IMG/VR virus record: IMGVR_UViG_3300010885_003579
Location: 1 to 43,761 of that record
Strand: one strand, 5' to 3'
Origin: a virus
DNA: 43,761 nucleotides
The notes below the pieces were generated by a model. It saw only the letters and a program-made list of their open reading frames with translations, was not told where the DNA came from and did no database searches. The translations under genes were made by a program, and so were the position numbers. This document shows, one piece after another, positions 19,396-27,823 of this stretch (the stretch's first letter is position 1; every line of letters starts with the position of its first letter).

Positions 19396-19992
19396 ATGAA
19401 AGTCAATATCGGTTCTTATCACGACTACTTTGGTCCCTATCAAATCGCAGAAAAGGTTTTCTTCTGGATCAATCACAGAGAAGTTCTTTTGGGTTTGGAT
19501 GAAACCCTAGAGCATCGCTGGGATGTGAGAGCGTGTGAGAAGTTTGGTGATTGGATGAGCGATAGAGCTTGGTTCGTCAAGTTCTTAAACTGGATTGACT
19601 CCAAGAAGCAGCGCAAGATCCAAGTTCGCATCGATCCGTGGGATACTTGGTCGATGGATCATACCCTCGCACTTATCATTCATCCTATGCTTGTTCAGCT
19701 GAAAGCAGCTAATCATGGATACTTCAGCTCTGACCCTGATGATGCACCACAAATTGGTAAAGGCAAGGAAACAGATTATGGCGGTAATGATACTCTTGCT
19801 CTTGATCGTTATAACTGGATCATGGACGAAATGATCTGGACGTTTGACGAGCTGAAGAGCGACAGAGATCATGAACTCTTCTATAACGAAGAAACTGGTC
19901 AGTATAACTTCGAAGGTCAAAAAGAACACGACGAGCGTATGCAAAATGGTCTTCGTTTGTTCGGTAAGTATTTTCGCGCACTTTGGGATTGA
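19396..19992 (+). CDS. conserved phage protein of unknown function
   Basis: A 198-residue protein with many Trp, Asp and His residues. Blocks VNIGSYHDYFGPYQIAEKVF, VRIDPWDTWSMDHTLALIIH and LDRYNWIMDEMIWTFDEL recur in T4-like phage proteins. It ends with a helix rich in Glu and Arg. The starting codon follows the previous gene by 5 bp. The role is unknown. Confidence 0.75.
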   Translation: MKVNIGSYHDYFGPYQIAEKVFFWINHREVLLGLDETLEHRWDVRACEKFGDWMSDRAWFVKFLNWIDSKKQRKIQVRIDPWDTWSMDHTLALIIHPMLVQLKAANHGYFSSDPDDAPQIGKGKETDYGGNDTLALDRYNWIMDEMIWTFDELKSDRDHELFYNEETGQYNFEGQKEHDERMQNGLRLFGKYFRALWD

Positions 19993-19994
19993 GC

Positions 19995-20813
19995 ATGAGA
20001 TTCTATGAATTTTGTGGGAATGATAAACCCCTAAGCATTATCGCTGGTCCTTGCGCGTTTGAATCCAAAGAACACGCAATTATGATGGCTGAATCTCTCA
20101 AAGAGATTTGCGATAAACTAAAAGTCAACTTCATTTATAAGACCTCTTTCGATAAAGCAAATCGAAGTTCCGCAGATAGTAATAGGGGTGGCGGCTTCGA
20201 CGAGGCGTTTTACGGAATGGAGGCCGTCCGTGCTCGAGGAATCGAGGTTCTAACGGACGTTCACGAACCTTGGCATTGTGAACAAGTGCAGGCTGATATC
20301 ATTCAGATTCCTGCGTTCCTTTGCCGACAGACTGATCTTATTCGTGCTGCAGCAGAGAGCGGTAAGCCTGTCAACGTGAAGAAGGGTCAGTTCCTATCAC
20401 CGTGGGAAATGAGGAACGTAGCCGAGAAGCTGCGTAAGTTTGGCTGCGATAAGTATCTGTTTACTGAACGCGGAACGACATTTGGTTACAACAATCTTGT
20501 GGTTGACTTTCGTTCGCTCGAAGTGATGAAGCAATATACAGATCGCGTTGTTATGGATTGCACTCACGCAGTTCAGCTTCCTGGCGGTAATGGAACAAGC
20601 TCTGGTGGTCAGCGCCAGTATGTTTCTACTATGGCTCGCGCTGCTGTTGCGATTGGCGTCTCTGCTCTGTTCATCGAAACTCATCAAGATCCAGACAATG
20701 CACCATCTGATGGTCCAAACATGATTCGTCTTGACAACTTCGAGAATTTAGTATATGATTTACTCATACTTGATTATGACTCTAAGCAAAGGACGAAGCG
20801 AAAATATGGGTAA
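19995..20813 (+). CDS. kdsA: 3-deoxy-8-phosphooctulonate (KDO-8-P) synthase
   Basis: KdsA joins phosphoenolpyruvate and arabinose-5-phosphate to make KDO-8-P, the precursor of KDO in lipopolysaccharide core. The 272-residue protein (E. coli KdsA is 284) shows LSIIAGPCAFES near residues 13-24, YKTSFDKANRSS, VLTDVHEPWHCEQ, IQIPAFLCRQTDLIRAA, NVKKGQFLSPWEM, ERGTTFGYNNLVVD, THAVQLPGGNG and ETHQDPDNAPSDGPNM. Cys20 in GPC is the residue that separates metal-dependent from metal-independent enzymes, so this one is probably metal-dependent. Start 19995 lies 2 bp after the previous gene. Such a gene is unusual in a phage. Confidence 0.92.
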   Translation: MRFYEFCGNDKPLSIIAGPCAFESKEHAIMMAESLKEICDKLKVNFIYKTSFDKANRSSADSNRGGGFDEAFYGMEAVRARGIEVLTDVHEPWHCEQVQADIIQIPAFLCRQTDLIRAAAESGKPVNVKKGQFLSPWEMRNVAEKLRKFGCDKYLFTERGTTFGYNNLVVDFRSLEVMKQYTDRVVMDCTHAVQLPGGNGTSSGGQRQYVSTMARAAVAIGVSALFIETHQDPDNAPSDGPNMIRLDNFENLVYDLLILDYDSKQRTKRKYG

Positions 20814-21309
20814 CATTACTGGCAAGGTTTGGGGTGATACGAGCGTTCTCATTCAGAATTCTAATGTCGAACTTCACAAGATCAACGTAAAGGCGGGATT
20901 ACGCTGTTCGGAGCATAAGCATGAACACAAATGGAACGGATTCTATGTCATCTCAGGAGTGTTGGAAATCCATGTCGCAAAGAATAACTATGATCTCACC
21001 GATGTCACCACTCTTCGAGCAGGTGATTTTACTTCTGTCCGTCCTGGCGAGTTCCATTGGTTCAACTGCATTGAAGACTGTGTTGCACTAGAAGTCTATT
21101 ATCCAGAAGCACTCAGCGAAGATATCGTTCGCCGCAGCGTCGGTGGTAAGAACAATCCGTTCGTTGTGCCAGAACCACAGAAAACTCCTTGCGTCAACAT
21201 CTGTCAGCTCGATGAGTCTGGTGAAAAGTGCATCGGTTGTGACCGCACTCTTGCTGAGATCGCAGATGCTGGTCGTCGTGATGTTCCCTATGAAGGATAT
21301 GACAAATGA
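20806..21309 (+). CDS. cupin fused to a DUF1289 zinc-like domain
   Basis: A 167-residue protein. The first ~105 residues form a cupin barrel: motif 1 GLRCSEHKHEHKWNGFYVISG-like (split across about residues 26-46, His-x-His) and motif 2 PGEFHWFNC. The last ~40 residues carry C-V-N-I-C and C-I-G-C pairs followed by RTLAEIADAGR, which is DUF1289, a small domain usually found alone. The ATG at 20806 overlaps kdsA by 8 bp, so it is co-translated. A sugar-phosphate isomerase or a redox/metal role are possible. Confidence 0.78.
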   Translation: MGNITGKVWGDTSVLIQNSNVELHKINVKAGLRCSEHKHEHKWNGFYVISGVLEIHVAKNNYDLTDVTTLRAGDFTSVRPGEFHWFNCIEDCVALEVYYPEALSEDIVRRSVGGKNNPFVVPEPQKTPCVNICQLDESGEKCIGCDRTLAEIADAGRRDVPYEGYDK

Positions 21310-21545
21310 GTGATGCAGCCGTAGCAAGCATTATGAGTTCCAACACATTTATCTCGATGGTGGAACTCCGTATCAGCGACAAAGGTATGAGCTATCTCGA
21401 AGCGATTACCGATGTCTGTGAAAAGACTGGGCTTGAGTTTGAAAACGTATCCAAGCTCATGACTCCTACTATGCGTAAGCTGCTTCAGTCGGAAGCTGCT
21501 TCACTCAATCTCATCAAGCGCACTGGATCAAGGTTGCCAATCTAA
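21306..21545 (+). CDS. 33: gp33-like late transcription coactivator
   Basis: A 79-residue protein with the pattern SYLEAITDVCEKTGLEFENV, then MTPTMRKLLQSEAASLNLI and RLPI at the C-terminus. This resembles the phage late-transcription coactivator family represented by T4 gp33, which links RNA polymerase to the sliding clamp together with gp55. The presence of TATAAATA late motifs in the window supports such a system. It overlaps its neighbours by 4 and 1 bases. Confidence 0.6.
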   Translation: MSDAAVASIMSSNTFISMVELRISDKGMSYLEAITDVCEKTGLEFENVSKLMTPTMRKLLQSEAASLNLIKRTGSRLPI

Positions 21546-22534
21546 TGTTCGGTCAACAAGAGTTCTCAGATCACCAACAGTTCTTGAATTGGATTACCAG
21601 TATCAAGCTAGACGGTTTCGCCATCGATATAGACTATCCAACAGATTCATTGATCATTCGTAACAAAAGCACTAATATGGTTACGAGGATGAGTAGAATG
21701 GCTATTGAAGCTATGGAACCTGCGTTTCGTCGACAGCATATAATTGAAACGATTACTCAGATGTCAGGTGCGACTGGAGGAACTTATATCATGCCTTCTA
21801 ATGGTGGCGGTAGTCTTGGATTGGGAACATATTCTATTTCTTCTGGTGGCACAGGTGGTTCAGGTGACACAGGTGGTTCAATTCGGCACGACCCATGGAA
21901 TGTGCCGCCGCCCATATATGTCGATGACTACTACAGACAACAAAAAGAACAAGCTGAACTTGCTAAGAAACTGTTCAGTCCCAAAGAGCAGCTTATGCTT
22001 ACTGCGATCAAAAACGATCTCCACAAACTGTATCATGAAAAAAGAACGATCATGGAACAACAGACGTGGAACCGAGATCGTATGGTTATCGCTGGTAATT
22101 GCTTTGCTTCTATGCTAAAAGGCGATACGATAAACGACTACGATTTGTTCTTGCTTGATGACGACCACAATACCAAAATCATGGAATATATGGAAACTAA
22201 GTATCGTGATCGTGATGATATTCGTATCGGTAGTAGCGGATACATGAACAACGACCGCATCAAAAAAACAATGTTCTTCAAGGAAAGCAAGTTCCAGTAT
22301 ATTCTGACCGACTTCAAAACCCGTGAAGAATTGATTAGTCATTTTGATTTCAAGCATTGTCGTGTGTCGTATGATCTGATGACAGAAAAGCTGTTCATCA
22401 CACGCGAGACGATGGATGCTATCATCAACAAGACTCTTATTCCAAATACGAACAAGACTCCTGCTTCATGGCGTTATGCGAAGTTTGAAGATCGTGGTTG
22501 GAAATCTGAATTTTCTGAATTTGCGCCCATCTAA
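21545..22534 (+). CDS. nucleotidyltransferase-fold phage protein
   Basis: A 329-residue protein. An N-terminal ~90 residues are followed by a Gly/Ser-rich linker (GGGSLGLGTYSISSGGTGGS and nearby, residues 85-112). The C-terminal part carries IAGNCFASMLKGDTINDYDL near residues 182-201, where the Asp-x-Asp resembles the nucleotidyltransferase catalytic motif, and then HFDFKHCRVSYDL with ITRETMDAI, a pattern found in phage NTase proteins. Activity is not proven. The first base is shared with the previous stop. Confidence 0.65.
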   Translation: MFGQQEFSDHQQFLNWITSIKLDGFAIDIDYPTDSLIIRNKSTNMVTRMSRMAIEAMEPAFRRQHIIETITQMSGATGGTYIMPSNGGGSLGLGTYSISSGGTGGSGDTGGSIRHDPWNVPPPIYVDDYYRQQKEQAELAKKLFSPKEQLMLTAIKNDLHKLYHEKRTIMEQQTWNRDRMVIAGNCFASMLKGDTINDYDLFLLDDDHNTKIMEYMETKYRDRDDIRIGSSGYMNNDRIKKTMFFKESKFQYILTDFKTREELISHFDFKHCRVSYDLMTEKLFITRETMDAIINKTLIPNTNKTPASWRYAKFEDRGWKSEFSEFAPI

Positions 22535-23130
22535 TGGAAGGCATGAAAGCATACAACCGCTATCAAGCACTAAAGCTGCACTTCACTTCTGATTACGACT
22601 TTATTAAGTATAGCGGCAAGGTTCGCAAGATCAGCGAAGAATCGTTCCTCAAGCGAAAGGATCAGTATCTGTTTCGCAAGCTGGAACGTAAATACAGCGA
22701 CGAAGACCTAACCAACTTCTTCGTTGCTAACTTTGTCTCTAACGCTGGCGTTCGCTGGGTTGGAGAAATGAATGGACCAGAGTCTGAAAAGGTCTATCTG
22801 AATTGGCAGAAGCGTATCGAAGACTTTTCATATTACCTAAAGCAGGATTTGGAAACCATTCTTGATGAATGCAATAACAGCGTAAGCCGTATCCTTCTGG
22901 TTGAAAAGACGCATCCAGTTTTATTGAAAATGTATATGGCGGGTAAGGTTACAGCTGAAACTGTTATTGCTTTTGATGTAGCTTTTGACATTCTGGACAA
23001 ATGGAACGAAGAGATCGATGATCCAATCGTATGGCCTGAGTTCCATCGCCAGTTGTCAAAGTATCGACCTTTTGTAAAGGCTGACAAGGCTGATATAAAA
23101 AAGATTATGCGTGAAGTGTTTTCGTCTTGA
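22534..23130 (+). CDS. 59: gp59-like helicase loader
   Basis: A 198-residue protein with YNRYQALKLHFTSDYDFIKY near the start, then FLKRKDQYLFRKLERKYSD and FFVANFVSNAGVRWVGEM, which match T4 gp59 (217 residues). Gp59 binds forked DNA and gp32 and loads the gp41 helicase. It sits directly upstream of gp32, as the partnership predicts. The ATG at 22534 is shared with the previous stop, and its TGA lies inside the gp32 promoter -35. Confidence 0.85.
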   Translation: MEGMKAYNRYQALKLHFTSDYDFIKYSGKVRKISEESFLKRKDQYLFRKLERKYSDEDLTNFFVANFVSNAGVRWVGEMNGPESEKVYLNWQKRIEDFSYYLKQDLETILDECNNSVSRILLVEKTHPVLLKMYMAGKVTAETVIAFDVAFDILDKWNEEIDDPIVWPEFHRQLSKYRPFVKADKADIKKIMREVFSS

Positions 23131-23213: not shown

Positions 23214-24134
23214 ATGAACGAATCTTTCTCTGCCCTCAAGCGTCAGCGCACTTCTTCGCTGGAACGCCTTACCAAAGAAATCAACAAGCTTGCTAACAAA
23301 GAACAGGGATCGTCATCCGATGATCGCTACTGGCAGCCTGAAGTTGATAAGGCTGGTAACGGTTACGCTATCATTCGTTTTCTCCCCGCTCCTGTCAACG
23401 AAGAACTTCCTTGGGTCCGTATCTGGAACCACGGCTTCCAAGGTCCAGGCGGTTGGTATATCGAAAACTCTCTGACCACTCTCAATCAGCCCGATCCTGT
23501 TGCTGAAATGAATTCCAAGCTCTGGAACTCTGGTAACGACAAGGATAAGGAAATCGCTCGCGCACGCAAGCGTCGTCTAAACTACATTGCTAACATCTAC
23601 GTTCTCAAAGATCCTGCGCATCCTGAGAACGAAGGTAAGGTATTCCTCTTCAAGTTTGGTAAGAAGATTTTCGACAAGATCAACGAGAAGATGAATCCTG
23701 AGTTTGAAGATGAGAAGCCAACCAATCCATTTGATCTGTGGGCTGGTGCTAACTTCAAGCTAAAGATCCGTAAGGTCGAAGGCTATCGTAACTACGACAA
23801 GTCAGAGTTTGAAGAAGCAGCTCCATTGCTTGACGACGATGATGATATGGAAGCAATCTGGAAGGGTGAACACTCTCTCGCAGAACTCGTCGCTGCCGAT
23901 AAGTTCAAGAGCTATGACGAACTGAAGAAGCGTCTCGACAAGGTTCTCTCTGAACCAAACGCAGATGCTCGTAAGTTCAAGTCTAACGATGAAGACGATC
24001 TTCCGTTTGAGCGTACAGCTTCTCGTCCTGCTGCAGCACCTGCTGTTGGTAAGATGGCAAAGGCTACACCGATGAAGGCTGTCGAAGAAGACGATCTGGA
24101 ATTCTTCAACAAGCTTGCTGAGGATGACGAATAA
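23214..24134 (+). CDS. 32: gp32-like single-stranded DNA-binding protein
   Basis: A 306-residue protein that coats ssDNA in replication, recombination and repair. The N-terminal basic LAST-like segment LKRQRTSSLERL mediates cooperativity in T4. The OB core has YAIIRFLPAP near residue 51, HGFQGPGGWYIENSLTTL near 73, LWNSG and VFLFKFGKKIFDKINEKM, then NPFDLWAGANFKLKIRKVEG. The C-terminal ~60 residues are acidic, as needed for protein contacts. The protein has no cysteine, so the zinc site of T4 gp32 is absent. The leader is A/C-rich and could be an autogenous operator. A double hairpin and terminator follow. Confidence 0.92.
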   Translation: MNESFSALKRQRTSSLERLTKEINKLANKEQGSSSDDRYWQPEVDKAGNGYAIIRFLPAPVNEELPWVRIWNHGFQGPGGWYIENSLTTLNQPDPVAEMNSKLWNSGNDKDKEIARARKRRLNYIANIYVLKDPAHPENEGKVFLFKFGKKIFDKINEKMNPEFEDEKPTNPFDLWAGANFKLKIRKVEGYRNYDKSEFEEAAPLLDDDDDMEAIWKGEHSLAELVAADKFKSYDELKKRLDKVLSEPNADARKFKSNDEDDLPFERTASRPAAAPAVGKMAKATPMKAVEEDDLEFFNKLAEDDE

Positions 24135-24196: not shown

Positions 24197-25727
24197 ATTG
24201 ATGGTCTCTCATTACCTGTCGCTCGAAAGCAGCTTGCAGTTTTGGATTGCGTGAATACATTGGAAGGTTCTGTCCAGTCATACCACCAGTCTCCGCGCCA
24301 GCAACTGTTCCAACGTTCTGTACACTACTGTTCTGAACAACAGCAACTCCACCACCAGAGCCTGCACCTTCTCCACCAGATGGACCAGATGGTGGTGGAC
24401 CCATACTCGTTGTTTTTGCAGTTCCAGCTGGAGCACCAGTAGGAGGCGGTGCAATAGCATTGGACTCTTGCTTTACTTCACCTGCTGGAGCGCCCATATT
24501 GCTACCTGTCGGTGAAGCTGGAGTAGCAGGAGCTGGAGAACCAACAGGAGCAGAATTGCCTCCACCAGTTCCCATGCCGGTAGATGGTGCTGCTGGAGTA
24601 CCCGATCCGGAAGATGATGTAGCTGCAGGAGCACCCGATCCGGAAGATGATGTAGCTGCAGGAGCACCAGCAGGAGCACCAGCGGGAGCAGCTGGAGTGG
24701 ATTGAGTAGGTCGACCTTTATTGATAATTGGATTTGTTTCAGCTGGTTGTAGGTCTGTAGTTTTTGCTTTAGTATCAAACCAACGCCCATCTTTTACAGT
24801 AACAATATCACCTGTGCTATTTTTCGTATCCACATCTTCTTTTGTCAGACCGTTTGCTTTTAGAAATTGTGCTGGTTGTATTCTACCAGACTCTTGCACA
24901 GGACCAAGCTTATCTGTTTCTGCTTGTGGACCTGTAATCACTGACGATCTGGCGCCTGCGCCGCGTAGCTTTAGTTGGAAATCAAGCCAACCTTCAGGAT
25001 CCATTTCTCTTTGTTTTCCTGCCCAATAAGCAAGAGCAACAAAACCAGCACCAGCCAATGTCAATGGATTGAAGATAGCAGCTCTCAATCCATTTGCTAT
25101 TACTTGTGCTGTTGGACCTGTAAGAGCGCCTTCCAATAAAGCTAATAGTCTAGGTAGTGTTTCAGCAGCAAACTGAATAAGTTTATTCATTGCGCCTTTT
25201 GCAAACTCTATAAGATTTTTTAGCAAACCAAGAGCACCATCACCCAACTTCTTGATTAGCCACAGCTCTAGGATCTTCTCCATAAAGCTAGTAGCGCCAT
25301 CTTCACCGCCACCGTCTTTCTTGATCTCTTCCTGCTTTATGTTTACAGGCACGCCGTCAATTCTTACAGGCGCTTCTGATTTAGGAATAGCAAGAACTGT
25401 ACGAATGAAATCAATTCGACTTGCATTGAGTTCATTGTTTAGAACGCGAAAGCGTGTTGTTACATCTTTATTGAGGTTCTTCAGAGACTTGATAATAGTA
25501 CCAAAAGAAGCAATCACGCTTTTAGCAATATCAGTAATCTTGGCAATCTCTTCAACTAAACTATGCAGCGTTGTAACAACAGAATCCACAAAGCTATTCG
25601 AGAACATGCCGCTCGACACACGCTCTACGTTGTCGTTAGCCACAGCAAGGTTCTTACCAAAGAACTGCTTTAGATTTGGTCTATTATCGTTTGCGCCTCC
25701 TGCAGGAAGCAGATTAGAAATAGCCAT
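24195..25727 (-). CDS. Ala/Pro/Gly-rich tail-associated protein
   Basis: A 510-residue protein. Residues 30-250 are helical with ordered coiled-coil-like parts and a Gly-rich hydrophobic segment near 200-245. Residues 330-480 are a low-complexity Ala/Pro/Gly/Ser linker with two near-identical 11-residue copies. The C-terminus MYSRNPKLQAAFERQVMRDH is ordered. It overlaps the stop of the next gene upstream (TAATG). The position in a minus-strand tail cluster suggests a tail or baseplate role, possibly a tape measure-like partner. Confidence 0.72.
   Translation of the reverse strand: MAISNLLPAGGANDNRPNLKQFFGKNLAVANDNVERVSSGMFSNSFVDSVVTTLHSLVEEIAKITDIAKSVIASFGTIIKSLKNLNKDVTTRFRVLNNELNASRIDFIRTVLAIPKSEAPVRIDGVPVNIKQEEIKKDGGGEDGATSFMEKILELWLIKKLGDGALGLLKNLIEFAKGAMNKLIQFAAETLPRLLALLEGALTGPTAQVIANGLRAAIFNPLTLAGAGFVALAYWAGKQREMDPEGWLDFQLKLRGAGARSSVITGPQAETDKLGPVQESGRIQPAQFLKANGLTKEDVDTKNSTGDIVTVKDGRWFDTKAKTTDLQPAETNPIINKGRPTQSTPAAPAGAPAGAPAATSSSGSGAPAATSSSGSGTPAAPSTGMGTGGGNSAPVGSPAPATPASPTGSNMGAPAGEVKQESNAIAPPPTGAPAGTAKTTSMGPPPSGPSGGEGAGSGGGVAVVQNSSVQNVGTVAGAETGGMTGQNLPMYSRNPKLQAAFERQVMRDHQ
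24595..24660 (-). repeat. 33-bp tandem duplication in the linker of the tail protein
   Basis: Two copies, 24595-24627 and 24628-24660, differ at one position and encode the 11-residue APAATSSSGSG-type unit. It is recent or under concerted change. Confidence 0.9.
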
Positions 25728-27823
25728 TAGAATAATCCTCTTCCTGCAACAACACTAGCAGCTATATTATATGGATTGTATGCCTGTTCCATCTTTCTCG
25801 GTGAGTAAGAAGCTGTCTGGTATATTGTTCTTGTATTATTGATTACGTTATCGTTCTGCATAATAACAATTCCACCACGTGCTTGATTCTCGGCGATCAT
25901 GGTATCCACAGCGTTCTGCCGTGATGCAACAGCAAGAGCGTTTGCTGGTTCTCGTTGTGGTGCTGCTTCTGGTCGACCGTTCGATGCAACAGCGGCTCCA
26001 GCTCCCTTATACTCCCAGTGCCATGGTTCGCGAGGGATCGTGCTGAATCCAAAGCGACCAGCATTAGCCATAAGCCAATCATTCTGCTTTGTTCCGCGAG
26101 AGTTAGCGCCGCCACCAAGATCAAGCGCTGTACCCCAACCATGATTAGATTTGCCTGGAGTTGCAGCAAGACCACCTTGAGAATATAGACCCTTCTCTTG
26201 TGCTACTTTGACCTGAGCTGCGTATGGGCGATATGAATCTGTAATAGACCATGTAACACCATCTGCTTTAGCAGCTTGAACCATTGCTTCGTATGCAGCT
26301 GCGGCGTTTGGTTGTAGTCTATGATTACCTTGACCAACAGTCACAAGTTGTGAATCTGGTAGATTGCCGTTCTCGCCGATCTTAGATGGAGCGCCGAAAT
26401 CTTGAACTGGACCACCAGCTCCTGCGCCGCCTTGCGTTGGGTTGAATGTTGTAAGTCCAGGTACACCGCCAGTCATTGCTGCTGGTGTTCCGCCAGCAAC
26501 AGCAGGAGTAGCTAGACCTTCTCCCTTTGCGTATCTCTGAGCAATCATGATACGCTTTTGTCTATGTTCACCAGATGAACGCTCATAGTATTGATCCACA
26601 AGCGCAGCAGCTTGACCAGCATCTTGTGCTTGACGAATAAATCCTGCAGCTCTCTTTTCGTTGTTATTCAATTCCCAGTTGATGAACTCAAGCTGCTCTT
26701 GGAAGTTAGCTTCACGAATAGGCTTACCATATGTGCGCTGGAAGATAGCTTGGCGATCTGGATGCCATTGTGCTAGACCATATGCTTTACCGCCGTCACC
26801 AACAGCATTTGTTTTGAAGTTGGATTCTGCTTCGATATTAGCAGCAAGACCGATAGCTTGTGCGCGGCTCCATCCTTTACTTTCAAAGAAATCGATTGCT
26901 TCTTTTGCGCTACCAGTAGCAGCTACGCCTGGTCCACCGTATTCTGGAGCACCAGCAGGAGCAGCTCTGCCGCCACCACCGCCTCTAGCAGCTTGGCTAT
27001 CTTTTGCCATAAAGGTTTGAATTACACCAGCTGCAGCACCAGCTAATAGACCAAAGCCCATTTGCTTTGCAGTCTTTTTCATACTGCTGACAATGGTCGT
27101 CGGTTCTTTTGTTTTATCTTTTTGTTCTTTTGCTTTAGCTTCTTTTGCAGCTTTCTTTGCTGCAGCAGTCTTTACTTCACCAGCTTTGGCAGCACGTGAA
27201 CCACCAACACCCTTCGATAGCTTTGTTCTTGCGCCGCCAGCTTTAGTTGCTGTCTTTGTGCCTGTTAGTGCTTCGATGACTTTATCACGGAGATCGTCGT
27301 TCTGTTTGATTAGATCAGAGACAACCTTTTCGTGTTGCTCAGTCATATTAGTAATAATCTTCTCAACTTCACCAAAAGCATTCGGCATAGTTGTGAGGAT
27401 CTTTTCGTGGCTTCTAGCTAGATTTGATGTAGCCTTTACAACACTACCTAGCTCACGACCGATCTTACGCTCGGCGTTCTTCTGATCTTGCGAAATAGTT
27501 GGTGTAGGAGCTACAGCTTGCTTTACAGCAGCTTTCTTTGTCGCAGTTTCTTTTGTTAGAATATCAGCGAGACGACCAGTTAGTATCTGACCGTTCTGAT
27601 CGACAACATTTCCCTTTTTATCTTTATAGAACTTGGACTTGCCGATCTTGCCAATGACTTGACCAAGACCCTTGACCTTTTTCTTTTGCTTGGCTTGTTT
27701 GACTGGAGCAGGCTCGTCAGGAAGCGAAGGCTGCGCAGACAGTGCATCTGCTGCAGCTTTCTTAGCTTTATCACCACCCTTTTCGAGGATGGCTCTAAGA
27801 ATCTCTTCGTCTTCCTTTGACAT
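25727..27823 (-). CDS. tail protein with lysozyme-like and M15 peptidase domains
   Basis: A 698-residue protein. The first 240 residues are Lys/Ala-rich and helical. Near 305-430 is a phage tail lysozyme-type domain (AIDFFESKGWSRAQ, AANIEAESNF, YGLAQWHPDR). Near 490-610 is an M15/VanY D-Ala-D-Ala carboxypeptidase domain, with SYRPYAAQ, then SNHGWGTALDL and WHWEY supplying the zinc ligands. The C-terminus AYNPYNIAASVVAGRGLF is hydrophobic. It could cut both glycan and peptide of the host wall at infection. It overlaps the following gene by one base. Confidence 0.87.
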   Translation of the reverse strand: MSKEDEEILRAILEKGGDKAKKAAADALSAQPSLPDEPAPVKQAKQKKKVKGLGQVIGKIGKSKFYKDKKGNVVDQNGQILTGRLADILTKETATKKAAVKQAVAPTPTISQDQKNAERKIGRELGSVVKATSNLARSHEKILTTMPNAFGEVEKIITNMTEQHEKVVSDLIKQNDDLRDKVIEALTGTKTATKAGGARTKLSKGVGGSRAAKAGEVKTAAAKKAAKEAKAKEQKDKTKEPTTIVSSMKKTAKQMGFGLLAGAAAGVIQTFMAKDSQAARGGGGGRAAPAGAPEYGGPGVAATGSAKEAIDFFESKGWSRAQAIGLAANIEAESNFKTNAVGDGGKAYGLAQWHPDRQAIFQRTYGKPIREANFQEQLEFINWELNNNEKRAAGFIRQAQDAGQAAALVDQYYERSSGEHRQKRIMIAQRYAKGEGLATPAVAGGTPAAMTGGVPGLTTFNPTQGGAGAGGPVQDFGAPSKIGENGNLPDSQLVTVGQGNHRLQPNAAAAYEAMVQAAKADGVTWSITDSYRPYAAQVKVAQEKGLYSQGGLAATPGKSNHGWGTALDLGGGANSRGTKQNDWLMANAGRFGFSTIPREPWHWEYKGAGAAVASNGRPEAAPQREPANALAVASRQNAVDTMIAENQARGGIVIMQNDNVINNTRTIYQTASYSPRKMEQAYNPYNIAASVVAGRGLF

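Follow-up and report, generated by a model that had tools for sequence, protein, structure and literature searches.

A KdsA-cupin gene pair as a probable two-gene KDO-8-phosphate module in an uncultured T4-like phage lineage

Gene organization of the kdsA locus

The window, as we call the whole stretch of DNA that was analysed, is an entire IMG/VR virus record, linear and 43,761 bases long. It contains T4-type genes for gp33, gp59, gp32, gp6 and other baseplate parts, PhoH and ThyX. The nearest isolates by gp32 are cyanophages (58%), and gp6 is nearest to that of Pelagibacter phage HTVC008M (37.5%). The genes described next all lie on the + strand. The kdsA open reading frame (19995..20813), encoding a KDO-8-phosphate synthase that appears metal-dependent by its residues, begins with an ATG at 19995, 2 nt past the stop codon of an upstream gene of unknown function (19396..19992; phrog_11543, 2.2e-37), and ends with a stop codon at 20813. 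Many relatives also have the phrog_11543 gene before kdsA; in others an endolysin-like gene takes its place (phrog_938, 5e-20; for example L073:5400-5987). Elsewhere in the window, on the - strand, one protein (25727-27823) combines a phage tail lysozyme (PF18013) with a VanY peptidase domain (PF02557).

Downstream of kdsA is a gene for a cupin with a C-terminal DUF1289 (20806..21309; PF07883, 1.2e-8, with PF01050 and PF06945). The cupin start is most likely the ATG at 20806 rather than 20755, because relatives conserve a start there. With this start the gene overlaps kdsA by 8 nt, its cupin domain occupies about 20806-21165, and its DUF1289 part 21184..21306. The sequence-only reading had described KdsA as overlapped by a cupin with a C-terminal C-x3-C...C-x2-C domain, and this description is accurate, the cysteines being CVNIC...CIGC. 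The cupin stop codon in turn overlaps the start of a gp33-like late-transcription coactivator gene (21306..21545; PF16805, 8.5e-16; phrog_254, 3.2e-16) within the ATGA at 21306-21309. These two overlaps suggest that KdsA, the cupin and gp33 are translationally coupled. A nucleotidyltransferase-like gene (21545..22534; phrog_1614, 6.2e-7; phrog_4400, 3.8e-15), found in the same interval of many relatives, separates gp33 from the core genes for the gp59 helicase loader (22534..23130; phrog_269, 5.3e-57) and the gp32 single-strand DNA binding protein (23214..24134; phrog_224, 1e-119). Thus the locus has the T4-like core order gp33-gp59-gp32.

KdsA has the hallmarks of a metal-dependent KDO-8-phosphate synthase

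It had been claimed from the letters alone that this phage KdsA keeps the GPC cysteine of the metal-dependent kind. Our analysis bore this out: the protein scored 359.5 bits against the TIGR01362 KDO-8-phosphate synthase equivalog, above the cut-off of 314, and the GPC cysteine is residue 20. It also matched PF00793 (3.5e-64), and its best PDB match was 3fs2, a 2-dehydro-3-deoxyphosphooctonate aldolase (5e-86). Alignments to 3fs2 and 1fwn, which we take to be the Brucella and Aquifex enzymes, respectively, indicated that the substrate motifs are kept. In the portion of PMC3052366 available to us, the ligands of metal-dependent KDO-8-phosphate synthases are given as Cys, His, Glu and Asp, and by alignment and spacing C20, H191, E228 and D239 of the phage protein correspond to that ligand set. 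All four residues are invariant in 68/68 distinct phage sequences; loss of key residues on alignment, which had been named as one sign against the identification, was not seen. These features make a strong case for assigning the window protein as a metal-dependent KDO-8-phosphate synthase, and on the same grounds the phage enzyme very probably makes KDO-8-phosphate.

The phage protein thus resembles the bacterial metal-dependent enzymes represented by 3fs2 and 1fwn in fold family, equivalog score, metal ligands and substrate motifs. It differs from bacterial KdsA in being at most 58% identical among the 80 bacterial loci kept, in forming a separate clade, and in its fixed place beside gp33 with a cupin. 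Viral kdsA has been reported before as an auxiliary metabolic gene in viral genomes or contigs (PMC5332604, PMC10653327, PMC11018836), but the accessible parts of these papers mention neither a cupin partner nor a fixed core position.

The KdsA-cupin pair recurs beside the gp33-gp59-gp32 block

With the window KdsA as query, a scan found 125 relatives among viral contigs, and 80 of them were kept. In all 80 of these loci a same-strand cupin gene lay directly downstream of kdsA, one being cut by the contig end; because the arrangement recurs in 80/80 loci, chance is excluded. A second scan with a distant member as query gave 30 loci, and the cupin was downstream in all 20 that were newly numbered. 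We then pooled the KdsA-scan loci with those from cupin queries and removed duplicates. In this set a cupin lay no more than 700 nt downstream in 83/83 distinct phage KdsA loci whose contig extends 1.2 kb or more downstream, and gp33 came next after all 75 distinct KdsA-adjacent cupins with enough upstream flank. The pair was at the gp33-gp59-gp32 block in 39 representative loci, wherever the contig shows the block.

The cupin also occurs without its partner: when we considered the 109 distinct cupin loci that have 1.4 kb or more of upstream sequence, KdsA was lacking within 700 nt in 34, and obligate coupling of the cupin to KdsA was accordingly rejected. Nine of these 34 cupins still precede gp33, and in contig G421 some 4.8 kb separate the cupin from a KdsA gene upstream. 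The KdsA-less cupins share 51-66% identity with the window protein in the scan listing and retain its invariant residues. Their existence implies either that what the cupin makes has a use where the phage lacks KdsA, for instance for a host KdsA, or that the substrate range is broader. Genes resembling GDP-mannose dehydratase, FkbM methyltransferase and glycosyltransferases lie near KdsA-less cupins, as do gene clusters c1, c8 and phrog_11279, for which no Pfam match was found. Close to one such cupin, a canonical cupin of the phosphomannose isomerase (PMI) type (PF01050, 6.6e-26) and an RfaE-II-like nucleotidyltransferase domain (PF01467) are joined in a single protein (L379:3913-4677, + strand; also in L264). 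At four loci (L265, L267, L269 and L270) KdsA-less cupins sit among genes that by eye resemble FolE, QueE and a queuosine-precursor transporter.

KdsA is inherited like a core gene

The sequence-only reading had proposed a KdsA tree with alphaproteobacterial enzymes. We built one from 26 phage and 80 bacterial rows (quick search, LG+G4), the latter being 80 of at least 591 and mostly alphaproteobacterial. The phage proteins did not fall inside the alphaproteobacteria. Instead, they formed one side of a branch with SH-aLRT support of 100 and a stem of 0.35, with no bacterial row inside. As the bacterial rows are mostly alphaproteobacterial, a proteobacterial host appears likely.

Pairwise KdsA identities were correlated with those of gp59, gp32 and PhoH (r = 0.87 each), of a PD-(D/E)XK protein (r = 0.83) and of the cupin (r = 0.82), and none of 500 label permutations gave values as high. 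KdsA therefore has the inheritance pattern of a core gene, co-diverging with gp59 and gp32. Recent capture of a host kdsA was set aside in view of the tree and of this co-divergence with core genes. We conclude that KdsA and the cupin beside gp33 are a unit kept by evolution, and the view of this locus as a two-gene KDO-8-phosphate module of an uncultured T4-like lineage is well supported.

Kinship of the cupin with type-II phosphomannose isomerase

The Pfam Cupin_2 family matched 22/22 cupin-only sequences, and PF01050 (phosphomannose isomerase) matched 20/22 at E values up to 1, the best being 6.6e-8. The window cupin scored 24.6 bits (long frame) or 25.8 bits (cupin alone) against the PF01050 gathering score of 23.6, the matches covering profile positions 14-74 and 15-74 of 116, or half of the profile. 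The WbuC and GMP_PMI models of NCBIfam matched the cupins weakly, with the window protein below cut-off. Against the GMP-PMI equivalog TIGR01479, a model of a 467-position two-domain protein, it reached 15.9 bits compared with the required 372.95.

We also searched 385 alphaproteobacterial genomes with a cupin profile. Matches were found in 16 genomes, and 12 loci were kept. Ten of the 12 are C-terminal PMI domains of long frames with an RPWG...EDDIxR layout, as judged by eye and by alignment, and another is a small PF01050 protein (8e-34). In the last (L203:1369-3036, - strand), a NeuB protein is extended at its C-terminus by a cupin that matches D-lyxose isomerase (2.8e-7), another pairing of a PEP-aldolase with an isomerase-like cupin. 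When the phage cupin was compared with the alphaproteobacterial PMI domains by hhalign, it aligned over nearly its full length (positions 7-111) with a probability of 97 and an E value of 3e-11, and a set of mostly KdsA-less cupins aligned to the PMI alignment at 1.1e-11; as the comparison was with PMI only, these values speak for kinship and not for exclusivity. By these profile comparisons the phage cupin is a relative of type-II PMI.

The phage cupin shares with the type-II PMI domain (PF01050, the C-terminal part of GMP-PMI) an N-terminal WG, the cupin motif in ungapped register, and the C-terminal E-x-(Y/Q) and D-I-x-R. It differs in being free-standing, in falling far under the GMP_PMI equivalog cut-off, and in its metal site, which reads H-x-H-x-H-K-W-N rather than the Q-x-H-x-H-R-x-E of PMI. 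Thus His occupies the position of the PMI Gln, and an invariant Asn that of the metal-ligand Glu, a change that could mean a different chemistry. The phage cupins have three His, along with other polar residues, that never vary. AlphaFold predicted a confident barrel, with pLDDT of 92-97 through most of the cupin. Structure searches (Foldseek, VIA-align) returned the archaeal phosphomannose isomerases 7zvm and 7zvy and the D-lyxose isomerase 7nzp, together with many unrelated cupins that scored similarly, including KdgF and dioxygenases, and these searches picked out no single function. The kinship with PMI suggests an isomerase role, which goes beyond what had been read from the letters alone.

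The DUF1289 tail is optional

DUF1289 in the window protein scored 34.4 bits against the PF06945 cut-off of 27. The fusion of cupin and DUF1289, earlier held to be unusual, is real, and yet the tail is dispensable: among 82 distinct KdsA-adjacent cupins it was fused in 35 and encoded by a separate next gene in 3, while 43 had no tail and 1 could not be read. In a duplicate removed from this count (L045) it is separate as well. DUF1289 as an essential part of the system was thus rejected, and the domain is optional in the KdsA-cupin phages. The four cysteines were present in 18/30 A2 members, namely those with the tail in frame; our guess is that they could hold a bound metal or an Fe-S centre. 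DUF1289 is widespread in alphaproteobacteria, being over cut-off in 148/289 genomes, and E. coli YdhL contains it according to the accessible text of PMC8228696. No phage-type cupin was found near the 80 bacterial kdsA genes.

Related cupins in cyanophage sugar clusters

Distant cupin matches were found in 29 phage records. At 8/8 cyanophage loci that were read, a cupin of the same PHROG accompanies small HAD-like genes and ADP-heptose-type genes. The neighbours include heptose-adenylyltransferase-like, PfkB/heptose-kinase-like or epimerase genes, not every gene being present in each phage. Neither SIS nor SIS_2 was found in these 8 genomes. Cyanophage genes near the cupin that are labelled phosphoheptose isomerase contain a DIDGT, DIDNT or DIDET motif and were read as HAD-like, and the one that was tested matched a capsule biosynthesis phosphatase model at 1e-8, below cut-off. 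The label looks wrong. The open reading frames concerned (L388:5577-5918 and its equivalents in L389-L395) encode about 100-115 amino acids and are HAD-like, not SIS.

T4-GC 304, 305, 307 and 308 co-occur in P-SSM2, S-SM2 and S-SSM7, and cupin-fold sugar isomerases are mentioned in such cyanophage clusters, according to the portions of PMC3037559 and PMC7824862, respectively, that were available. T4-GC 307 is the cupin. These lipopolysaccharide clusters (P-SSM2, S-SSM7, S-SM2) resemble our locus in belonging to T4-like phages and in having a same-PHROG cupin within a sugar-nucleotide cluster. They differ in that heptose-like enzymes, not KdsA, accompany the cupin, and in cupin sequence, the one cyanophage protein that we aligned being 24% identical to the window cupin.

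A model for the KdsA-cupin module

The identities of the genes, their key residues, synteny and co-inheritance, the homology of the cupin and the lack of SIS isomerases in the contigs tested are shown by our data; what the two proteins catalyse, on which substrate, to what end and when is what we infer in the model that follows. The cupin would convert D-ribulose-5-phosphate to D-arabinose-5-phosphate, which KdsA would condense with phosphoenolpyruvate to give KDO-8-phosphate. Host KdsC and KdsB would carry this product on to CMP-KDO for envelope polysaccharide. In this way the phage would maintain or alter the making of envelope sugars by its host at a late stage of infection; the late timing is proposed because the KdsA and cupin genes are coupled to gp33. 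Arabinose-5-phosphate is related to ribulose-5-phosphate at C2 as mannose-6-phosphate is to fructose-6-phosphate. We give this explanation of the whole module, with the cupin as an isomerase making arabinose-5-phosphate, a probability of about 0.4. That the cupin is a phosphosugar isomerase of some kind has somewhat less than an even chance, and arabinose-5-phosphate specifically as the product is doubtful.

In bacteria, arabinose-5-phosphate is made from ribulose-5-phosphate by the SIS-type enzymes KdsD, KpsF or GutQ, as stated in the accessible part of PMC10448790. The phage protein has a cupin fold, unrelated to SIS, and shares with these enzymes the proposed reaction alone. The arabinosyl-hmC phages related to RB69 are also T4-like with a proposed arabinose-5-phosphate isomerase, but theirs is of the SIS type and serves DNA modification, as far as the available text of PMC6024577 goes. 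Among 13 linear KdsA contigs, four of them of 139-158 kb, no SIS domain (PF01380) and no kdsB was found, nor was SIS_2 in 6 contigs or kdsC and KDO transferase in 14; absence from linear contigs is not proof. The cyanophage clusters offer a parallel, with a cupin of the same PHROG in genomes where no SIS isomerase was found. A full phage KDO pathway was set aside on these counts (no kdsB or SIS in 13/13, no kdsC or KDO transferase in 14/14). With no phage KDO glycan route found, KDO-8-phosphate would need to be passed on to the pathway of the host. A role in supplying KDO, as envisaged earlier, is reasonable; for a phage glycan no phage-encoded route was found in these 13-14 contigs. KdsD was over cut-off in 22/24 bacterial genomes tested, indicating that hosts can usually make arabinose-5-phosphate. 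This counts against the model, as do the cupins without an adjacent KdsA, the Asn in place of the canonical metal-ligand Glu, the half-profile match to PF01050, the many unrelated cupins in the structure searches and the low identity of the cyanophage cupin.

The position of the cupin, always downstream of KdsA in the coupled clade, would also fit a protein that acts after KdsA, binding KDO-8-phosphate or KDO or else epimerising, tautomerising or oxidising it, so that a variant ulosonic acid results. KdgF, a cupin acting on deoxy-uronates, is among its structural and sequence neighbours (7zyb, 2.9e-4; 5fq0), and the invariant His and polar residues suit such a role. We nevertheless think it rather unlikely, as the same invariant residues are found in cupins 51-66% identical that lack an adjacent KdsA, and the best bacterial profile relatives are PMI domains. 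Those KdsA-less cupins, lying near the GDP-mannose dehydratase-like, FkbM and glycosyltransferase-like genes, and the cyanophage relatives in heptose-like modules raise another reading: an ordinary envelope-sugar enzyme with a different substrate, such as a mannose-6-phosphate or heptose-7-phosphate isomerase, that merely shares the KdsA site. This too is unlikely, for a shared site alone leaves unexplained the coupling in 83/83 loci, whose KdsA proteins can be as little as about 56% identical.

The PHROG label, cysteine dioxygenase (phrog_7851, 8.8e-10), together with three His and no Glu ligand, would be in keeping with a 3-His thiol dioxygenase-like oxygenase. The same label is applied to cyanophage members that keep H-x-H-x4-E in sugar clusters, and no cysteine dioxygenase family appeared for the cupin in the Pfam or NCBIfam tables; an oxygenase is very improbable. 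We consider it just as improbable that the two proteins of the pair play no metabolic part during infection and are fixed by linkage to gp33 or are structural or regulatory. The tight overlap with gp33 and the presence of kdsA, and usually kdsD, in likely hosts could be cited in its favour, but linkage alone would not keep the KdsA metal ligands and motif residues invariant in 68/68 sequences.

Returning to the cupin as an arabinose-5-phosphate-making isomerase, a broader version takes the phage cupins for a new class of sugar-phosphate isomerases, non-SIS and derived from the PMI domain. They would supply D-manno/arabino aldose phosphates, arabinose-5-phosphate for KdsA and heptose-7-phosphate in cyanophage modules without GmhA, and the phages would have a self-sufficient core route from ribulose-5-phosphate and PEP to KDO-8-phosphate. 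We hold this version slightly more doubtful than the product assignment itself. If it were true, this route would be a core function of T4-like phages and not an accessory gene. Envelope-sugar genes in phages tend to be regarded as dispersed accessories. In the large uncultured lineage described here, a KDO enzyme and its cupin partner descend together with the core genes for replication and late transcription, and these phages therefore seem to depend on KDO supply. The cupin may make the starting sugar of KdsA by a route outside those of known bacteria. Were it an isomerase, it would be a second solution to a step otherwise assigned, in the accessible text of PMC10448790, to KdsD, KpsF or GutQ, and it might fill the isomerase gap in the cyanophage heptose clusters that have a cupin labelled cysteine dioxygenase. 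Among the open-access papers listed, subscription papers not being covered, we found no account of a phage KdsA-cupin pair, and no paper that brings a cupin together with arabinose 5-phosphate and an isomerase, or with sialic acid synthase and mannose 6-phosphate.

KdsA in other phage records

KdsA matches were found in 14 records of the 'phages' collection. Those in Listeria, Staphylococcus, Enterococcus and 'Bacteriophage sp.' records were at 27-29%. One record filed as an Acinetobacter phage (CAKLQF020000008.1, L205) has the gene order pyrG-kdsA-eno-ftsB-ispD, presumably that of a bacterial chromosome, and is probably not phage DNA. In cyanophage S-SCSM2R, the one such genome read, kdsB lies beside KdsA and no cupin is adjacent, indicating that KdsA does not need such a cupin in every phage. 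In contig G425 (L396:5-1281) a KdsA fragment overlaps a KdsB-like gene (NF003952, 221.7 bits against a cut-off of 193) far from the cupin, forming a separate KDO pair.
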